Source: Nitrosopumilus sp. LS_AOA (GTDB lineage: Archaea; Thermoproteota; Nitrososphaeria; Nitrososphaerales; Nitrosopumilaceae). From it: a stretch of DNA of 64,000 bases. The stretch is taken from contig LFLC01000010.1 in the NCBI GenBank assembly GCA_001543015.1, positions 1 to 64,000 on the forward strand, read 5' to 3'. A program made the translations under genes and the position numbers. Within the stretch, counting starts at the first letter, position 1, and every line of letters begins with the position of its first letter. The notes under the pieces were generated by a model, which saw nothing but the letters and a program-made list of their open reading frames with translations, was not told the DNA's origin and ran no database searches. Below, in pieces: positions 62,307 through 64,000 of this stretch.

Positions 62307-62759
62307 ATGAACACTTTGCCAGTCATTGCAGTAATAGGAATGTTGGTATTAGTTACAGCAACTATCGGTTTCGGTGCCACATTAACAAGTACTCCAACGT
62401 TTAACCTGATTGGTGCAAGTGATAATAATGAAGTAGCAACAGCAAGAGGAAATATCACGGCTTTAACATGGACTGAAGAAGTTGGTCCACATGGGGAAAT
62501 TGAAACAGATAGAATAGATTTTACCGTGGGTAATAATTCCACATCAACAACCATTACATTTGATGTATGTGCAGTAATTGAATTTAATAATGGAAGCGCT
62601 TATTTCTCCCCATCAGCAGGTTCAGTCCCAGCATGTGTAACTACAGATTCTATATCTGGAAATGCATTGGATGCTACTAATTATATCGACTTTGTACTTG
62701 CAGTAAATGTTACAGAAATAGTAGATATTAGTTTCTCAATAGAAGAATCAACACCATAA
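62307..62759 (+). CDS. Small secreted protein with ARG-x6-W motif
   Basis: A 150-residue exported protein. An N-terminal hydrophobic signal (residues 4-24) is followed by a Thr/Ser-rich beta-type domain with two cysteines (C88, C110) that could form a disulfide, and three likely N-glycosylation sequons. After the signal it carries A46-R-G-x6-W55, the same spacing as the protein starting at 63827. It precedes a signal peptidase gene by about 50 bases, an arrangement like the Bacillus TasA/SipW unit (inference). Confidence 0.65.
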   Translation: MNTLPVIAVIGMLVLVTATIGFGATLTSTPTFNLIGASDNNEVATARGNITALTWTEEVGPHGEIETDRIDFTVGNNSTSTTITFDVCAVIEFNNGSAYFSPSAGSVPACVTTDSISGNALDATNYIDFVLAVNVTEIVDISFSIEESTP

Positions 62760-62808
62760 GATAATTGACAACCGATTATTTTTTGAAATGTCTATGTAGG
62801 TAAAAACT

Positions 62809-63627
62809 TTGAAAACAAAAAAAGTGAAAATACTCACATTACTTTTAATTTTACCACTAGTAGTATATTTTTGGCCTGTTCAACTTTATGGAGATACAAC
62901 ATACATCATGTTAGTTGGAAATAGTATGAAAGGGACAATTGATAGTGGAACATTTGTGATTATAAAACCAGATCAAGAATATTTTCTTGGAGATATTATT
63001 GCATTTGAAAATGAACAAAATAAAAAGGTAATTCATAGAATTATAGAAATTACGGATGAGGGATTCATTACAAAAGGGGATAACAATCAGAGAATTGATC
63101 CTGGAACACAATATTTAGACAAGGTAATAGGAAGATCAGTGATTGTAGTGCCATTTGTGGGATTTACTTCAATGTTTATTCAAACACCATTAGGAATGTC
63201 AATTTTTGGGGTTTGGGCTTTGGCAATGTTTATGATAAAAAAACCAGATAAAATAAAAAAAATTACACATGAGAGTTTTACAATTTTTAAAATTGGGTTA
63301 ATTTCAGTGATAGCTAATTACATCATTACTCAAAGTGCTCTAGGAATGAATATTCGTTTATCTGATTCAATGACCATCCCATTTTCAAATATTTTTGAAC
63401 CAAATACTGCAAATACGATTACATTTTGCATATTATTAATAACAATTATTGGATTATACTATCTAGTACGTATTCAAGACAAAAAAACAAAGGATATCAA
63501 AGCAGTAAAATTAATTCTCTCATTAGGGGTAATTCTCATCATGATATTTCAATCAATTAGCATACTCAGTATTTCTCATTTATGGTTAAATGAGATTAAT
63601 AAAATTGGCATAATTCCAGTATTTTGA
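62809..63627 (+). CDS. Signal peptidase I, ER/SipW type (S26B)
   Basis: A 272-residue membrane protease. An N-terminal helix (about 7-24) is followed by the catalytic serine S39 (VGNSMKG), H76 in the place of the bacterial lysine (VIHRI) and D91 (TKGDNN); the C-terminal half has about four further membrane helices, more than usual. The Ser-His-Asp set marks the archaeal/eukaryotic/SipW branch. TTG start. It is flanked by two small exported proteins that share a motif and may be its dedicated substrates. Confidence 0.9.
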   Translation: MKTKKVKILTLLLILPLVVYFWPVQLYGDTTYIMLVGNSMKGTIDSGTFVIIKPDQEYFLGDIIAFENEQNKKVIHRIIEITDEGFITKGDNNQRIDPGTQYLDKVIGRSVIVVPFVGFTSMFIQTPLGMSIFGVWALAMFMIKKPDKIKKITHESFTIFKIGLISVIANYIITQSALGMNIRLSDSMTIPFSNIFEPNTANTITFCILLITIIGLYYLVRIQDKKTKDIKAVKLILSLGVILIMIFQSISILSISHLWLNEINKIGIIPVF

Positions 63628-63812
63628 TAAAATTTTAAAAATTAAATTTTTTAAAATGGTTAAAAGTGCCATTTTGGAATCAAAGAATCAAAAAATATTC
63701 CATTCTCAATAATAGGATTTTCTTCCCCATACACAATAGAAGCAAATTGAACATAATATTACTCAAAAATAATTCTAAAAATGATCTTTTCAGGATTTTG
63801 AATTTTAAATCT

Positions 63813-63818
63813 GAGGAG
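63813..63818 (+). promoter_or_regulatory. Shine-Dalgarno GAGGAG
   Basis: A clear GAGGAG eight bases before the ATG at 63827, stronger than at most genes in this window, and it fixes that start. Confidence 0.6.
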
Positions 63819-63826
63819 TGGAAATA

Positions 63827-64000
63827 ATGGATTTTCAAACAATTGGAACTATTGGTTTAATGTTAGTTCTAGTTGTTGCAACATCAACTATGGCCTTAGC
63901 AGATGAGTCATTTATTGAAGAATCATTTTTTAATTCAAATTCAAACGAAGAAATCCACACAAGTATAGCACGCGGACAGGTTGAAGATTTTTCATGGATT
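63827..64000 (+). CDS. Small secreted protein with ARG-x6-W motif (cut by window end)
   Basis: The first 58 codons of an exported protein. Signal peptide about 1-25 (ends MALA), then an acidic, Asn-rich stretch and A48-R-G-x6-W57, matching the motif of the protein at 62307. The remainder lies beyond the window. A good ribosome site precedes it. It is probably a paralog of the first protein and part of the signal peptidase cluster. Confidence 0.65.
   Translation, partial: MDFQTIGTIGLMLVLVVATSTMALADESFIEESFFNSNSNEEIHTSIARGQVEDFSWI

Follow-up and report, generated by a model that had tools for sequence, protein, structure and literature searches.

In Bacillus, TasA fibres are built by strand exchange, and TapA is proposed to start them (PMC9674648, PMC10151520). 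For the Sulfolobus threads, the conserved residues after the signal peptide were described as the donor strand and a paralogue was proposed as the cap (PMC9715654). The present locus lies at the end of a window of 64,000 nucleotides from Nitrosopumilus sp. LS_AOA (genome of 1.93 Mb), which covers positions 1-64000 of its contig. A first-pass annotation had read it as a possible SipW/TasA-like unit that exports and matures a surface fibre or coat. Ammonia-oxidising archaea rank high in abundance among marine cells, yet little is known of how they attach to surfaces or to one another. The six-gene candidate fibre system described here is a concrete, testable gene set, limited to lineages that mostly also bear archaella.

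The contig extends to 83,821 and was read to 80,000 for the parts past the window edge at 64,000. The unit is larger than first noted and consists of about six genes. The plus strand carries A, a small secreted protein of 150 aa and the predicted main subunit (62307..62759), the S26B signal peptidase of 272 aa with a TTG start (62809..63627), and B, a second small secreted protein of 152 aa (63827-64285; 63827..64000 inside the window). B starts with ATG at 63827; GTG at 63818 is a possible alternative. Convergent to these genes, on the minus strand past the window, lie the third paralogue C (138 aa, 64362-64778), D (129 aa, 64790-65179) and the membrane protein E (1381 aa, 65179-69324), the end of which is overlapped by D by one base. 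E comprises a signal peptide, an ectodomain of about 400 residues in which InlB-like repeats are weakly recognisable, a single membrane helix and a coiled coil of about 900 residues, which is absent from the versions in compact operons. Histidine kinases and response regulators are encoded near the cassette in the source contig. For the peptidase, A, B, C and D, dN/dS was well below 1 in two pairs (source genome with G041, G060 with G216), with the lowest value, 0.02, for A in the comparison of G060 and G216. All five genes tested are under purifying selection.

The presence of an S26B peptidase gene between two small exported proteins was confirmed. The enzyme passed the profile of archaeal signal peptidase I (TIGR02228) with 77.7 bits against a cut-off of 51.85, and Ser39, His76 and Asp91 were invariant in both alignments of such peptidases, with 8 and 10 sequences. 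Hydropathy indicates one N-terminal anchor and four C-terminal segments in most members. The source genome encodes a separate housekeeping signal peptidase (C35:177322) with one C-terminal helix. Hence, of the roughly four extra C-terminal helices noted before, the number of segments holds, but only about three are extra, because the housekeeping archaeal enzyme already has one. With four segments against one, the cassette peptidase is a second, specialised enzyme, distinct from the housekeeping one. Judged by the SipW profile NF046067 (cut-off 190), it is no closer to SipW than the housekeeping enzyme, both scoring far below the cut-off (54.1 and 57.5 bits, respectively). For the complete genome G143 a broken peptidase frame was found (L085:9810-10633), caused by sequencing error or decay, while A, B, C and D persist. 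The persistence of the small genes beside a broken peptidase is a point against the explanation preferred below.

Completed past position 64000, B proved homologous to A across 144 residues (35% identity, E=2e-18). The motif A-R-G-x6-W, reported earlier for both small proteins, is present about 23 residues past the signal segment as ARGNITALTW in A and ARGQVEDFSW in B. From the alignment it is part of a real homology over the 144 residues and not an isolated motif. By sequence comparison C is a member of the same family. Across 30 relatives, invariance is limited to one Asn and two Cys; a disulphide is suggested by the two Cys. B forms a strongly supported clade on the tree that spans genera, and so does C; the set of paralogues is therefore older than the split of the genera g1 and g39.

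Five family members were found in the source genome: A, B, C, a lone A-type paralogue and a truncated copy. The lone paralogue (C66:10664-11107) adjoins an adenylate-cyclase-like gene and has no peptidase nearby; comparable lone copies occur in G041, G052, G060, G216, G031, G042, G143 and G045. The truncated copy is the C-terminal half of an A-type gene at 75295-75507 of the window contig and likely a relic. G041 has a similar A-type fragment (C12:44139). Downstream of the second cassette of G041, a protein of 602 aa is encoded (L065:9582-11387), whose signal and body resemble the A family (E=1e-7). Behind the A-like body come a long extracellular part and, at the C-terminus, a membrane helix; the protein is a possible tip or anchor adhesin.

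The small proteins were detected in 12 of the 250 genomes of the family and a peptidase of the cassette type in 13. Both occur, adjoining, in 11 genomes, which belong to three genera. Class-wide, the same 12 genomes out of 400 were the only ones with small proteins. The contig scan for these proteins was performed with the alignment of the A group, as the alignment of the whole family has no conserved stretches. In G045 a lone A stands at the end of a contig and the peptidase search gave no match; G167 and G169 lack A, B and C and encode a peptidase that is more distant. The divergent peptidases of G167 and G169 (307 and 314 aa; L087:4807-6587, L088:2656-4229) show the same architecture and are faced by a different small secreted family (163-218 aa), unrelated by hhalign; this is possibly another pair of peptidase and substrate. 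In G073, from another family of the same order, a full-length peptidase of the cassette type (L118:8708-10065) is divergent to a frame of 79 aa, perhaps a truncated gene, with a weak match to the A family (E=1e-5 within that locus).

The order A-peptidase-B, convergent with C-D-E, is kept in the genera g1 and g39. One-strand operons with the orders E-D-C-A-peptidase and E-D-C-peptidase were found at the loci of G041 (contig 5) and G164. An unrelated second protein, or a peptidase unlinked from such proteins in related genomes, was named in the first-pass annotation as evidence against its reading. Since B is homologous to A and A, peptidase and B stay together in related genomes, neither was observed. 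A dedicated export and maturation cassette is supported, with its own peptidase, paralogous substrates and linkage across three genera. Paralogy, conserved gene order and the fact that, among 250 genomes, peptidase and small proteins almost always occur together count in favour of the explanation preferred below, as do the separate housekeeping peptidase, the two invariant cysteines and the purifying selection.

A can be divided into a signal peptide (residues 1-23), a conserved mature tail (residues 24-47; 62376..62447, plus strand), which is a candidate donor strand or recognition segment, and a beta-sandwich body (residues 48-150). In split alignments, A and C were 0.37 identical in the signal peptide, 0.35 in the tail, 0.45 in the tail core and 0.26 in the body. 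For A and B the identity was 0.37 in the body, 0.22 in the signal peptide and 0.12 in the tail; B thus joins a body like that of A to another N-terminus (ALA|DES). The body of D does not align with the family, and hhalign joined D with 87% over the first 44 columns only. Judged by these alignments, signal peptide and mature N-terminal tail are common to A, C and D, and A and B have only the body in common. A profile of signal and tail recovered the A, C and D genes in nine genomes bearing small proteins; D sequences had gone into this profile, so finding D again in the genomes used for training is no independent result. The same profile gave nothing convincing in five genomes that lack the cassette (best E 0.005). 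Where compact operons lack B, the peptidase remains beside C and D, and this links the enzyme to the class of tail-bearing proteins. The signal of B (ALA|D) might be cleaved by the housekeeping enzyme.

The AlphaFold models of A and C are based on 12 sequences and reached pLDDT 77-80. For A, a seven-stranded beta-sandwich was predicted at residues 48-148, mostly with pLDDT above 82, and the tail was poorly predicted (residues 23-34 mostly below 50). C was modelled with a similar sandwich (pLDDT 77). Foldseek searches of A against the PDB and viral models and of C against the PDB gave no match at E<=0.001, nor any significant fold match of A or C to a strand-exchange pilin. The best matches below the threshold were DUF1425 and beta-sandwich domains of glycosidases. 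A cannula fibre (9h8b) at rank 4 for A (E=0.03, prob 0.66, TM-score 0.28) and an archaeal type IV pilus at rank 30 for C were not significant. The profile of A, B and C had no match among the sequences of solved structures. A conserved tail directly behind the cleavage site, disordered in the single chain as in the model of A, is seen in donor-strand filaments.

Taken together, we consider it slightly more probable than an even chance that the unit is a cassette dedicated to secreting and assembling a surface filament made of protein. A, C, D and probably also B would be exported through Sec, and the cassette peptidase would remove the distinctive signal peptide and free the conserved N-terminal tail. 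By donor-strand exchange, the tail of one subunit would complete the beta-sandwich body of the next. The swap of tails and bodies fits a strand-exchange fibre of this kind with B as cap. The roles are proposed because the traits of the tail resemble those described for the threads, and TasA is likewise built by strand exchange. Points against this explanation are that neither A nor C has a significant fold match to a strand-exchange pilin, that the models come from 12 sequences, that A and B have no charged n-regions, and that the housekeeping enzyme could cleave the signal of B. A would act as main subunit; C and D, with the tail on other bodies, as minor or adaptor subunits. Because B has the body of A but no tail, it could receive a strand but offer none, as cap or starter; such a role is proposed for TapA and Saci_0405. 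E, with signal peptide, ectodomain, membrane helix and often a long coiled coil, may form the membrane base.

The conservation of the tail might also reflect mere recognition by the peptidase. The cassette would then comprise a dedicated peptidase and secreted or surface coat proteins, for example S-layer-associated or soluble, which do not polymerise by strand exchange. We regard this explanation as unlikely, though it is to be taken seriously: the tail lies directly after the cleavage site and is confined to peptidase-linked proteins, and the fold is a generic beta-sandwich with no pilin match. Signal peptidases usually read few residues after the cleavage site, whereas the tail is conserved over about 20. 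Moreover, several combinations of tail and body per cassette would be unusual for independent coat proteins.

A rather improbable explanation is an accessory of the archaellum or the chemosensory system, such as a surface collar, a sheath, or an adhesion or sensing complex, with E as receptor-like membrane coiled coil. Archaellins were found in 10 of the 11 cassette genomes and in 49 of the 250 genomes overall (Fisher 3.5e-7, uncorrected for shared ancestry), and in G052, G060, G216, G031 and G034 no more than about 20 kb separate the cassette from archaellin genes. An extra A gene adjoins the archaellin in G034, and the kinases and regulators close to the cassette would suit a chemosensory role. 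However, 39 of the 49 archaellin-bearing genomes of the family have no cassette, and G164 has a cassette and no archaellin. The co-occurrence points to cells that swim and visit surfaces, or else to a cassette linked directly to the archaellum; a common motile or surface lifestyle explains the association equally well.

That the unit is a true, highly diverged TasA/camelysin-SipW member, homologous to the Pyrobaculum bundling pili, is very improbable: its gene logic equals that of sipW-calY1-bc_1280-calY2 (PMC10151520) and archaeal TasA homologues are reported in the literature, but neither TasA nor AbpA was among the Foldseek top 50 for A and C (models from 12 sequences), and the profiles PF12389 (TasA/camelysin) and TIGR04088 (SipW-cognate signal) had no match over cut-off in 14 genomes, with the B. 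subtilis control positive. Together with the NF046067 score of the cassette peptidase, which does not exceed that of the housekeeping enzyme, these negatives leave membership of the SipW/TasA families unsupported. Among the papers searched, none connects Nitrosopumilus with TasA. A type IV pilin or archaellin identity was rejected on direct reading of A and B. A class III signal consists of a charged n-region and a site of the K/R-G type before the hydrophobic helix; A and B have no charged n-regions and no such signal, and GFG or ALA closes their hydrophobic segment, as in class I signals. A viral origin was rejected as well, since the small proteins matched no PHROG and the search for a viral contig was negative.

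The filament reading can be compared with the described systems. Archaeal signal peptidase I (TIGR02228) has the same catalytic domain and Ser/His/Asp residues, but the cassette enzyme is a second copy of patchy distribution, has extra C-terminal helices and is tied to the cassette. The Pyrodictium cannulae (CanA) offer a likeness as fibre subunit with a weak match to A, which is not significant (TM-score 0.28). The bundling pili of Pyrobaculum (AbpA) are, like the putative filament of the cassette, archaeal extracellular filaments of a secreted beta-subunit and TasA-like according to the literature; the fold searches with A and C found no match to them. The Sulfolobus threads (Saci_0406/0405) share with the cassette, as predicted for A, a subunit exported by Sec and SPase I with a conserved N-terminal tail right after the cleavage site, and the neighbouring paralogue Saci_0405, proposed as cap, is comparable to B (PMC9715654). 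In contrast, no sequence relation was found, a dedicated signal peptidase is not part of the thread system as described (PMC9715654), and four cassette proteins bear tail and body in shuffled combinations.

For the Bacillus units tapA-sipW-tasA and sipW-calY1-bc_1280-calY2, the analogy drawn at the outset is supported: an ER/archaeal-type peptidase stands beside two related small secreted beta-proteins, which bear a distinctive signal peptide. The cassette differs in that neither sequence nor fold comparison matched it to TasA/camelysin or to the SipW-cognate signal, in the four-helix C-terminal membrane domain of its peptidase, and in the addition of C, D and the coiled-coil membrane protein E. 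It is best read as a unit that would work like tapA-sipW-tasA, rather than as an established member of the SipW/TasA family. Somewhat short of even confidence, we tentatively propose that these ammonia-oxidising archaea have a new kind of filament, with a single export tail placed on three different bodies and the body of B standing without it. Subunit, adaptor and cap would correspond to combinations of tail and body, served by a dedicated membrane-domain peptidase and a coiled-coil membrane anchor. If this is true, then with subunits of no detectable homology the Bacillus solution, an own signal peptidase with paired beta-subunits, recurs in archaea.
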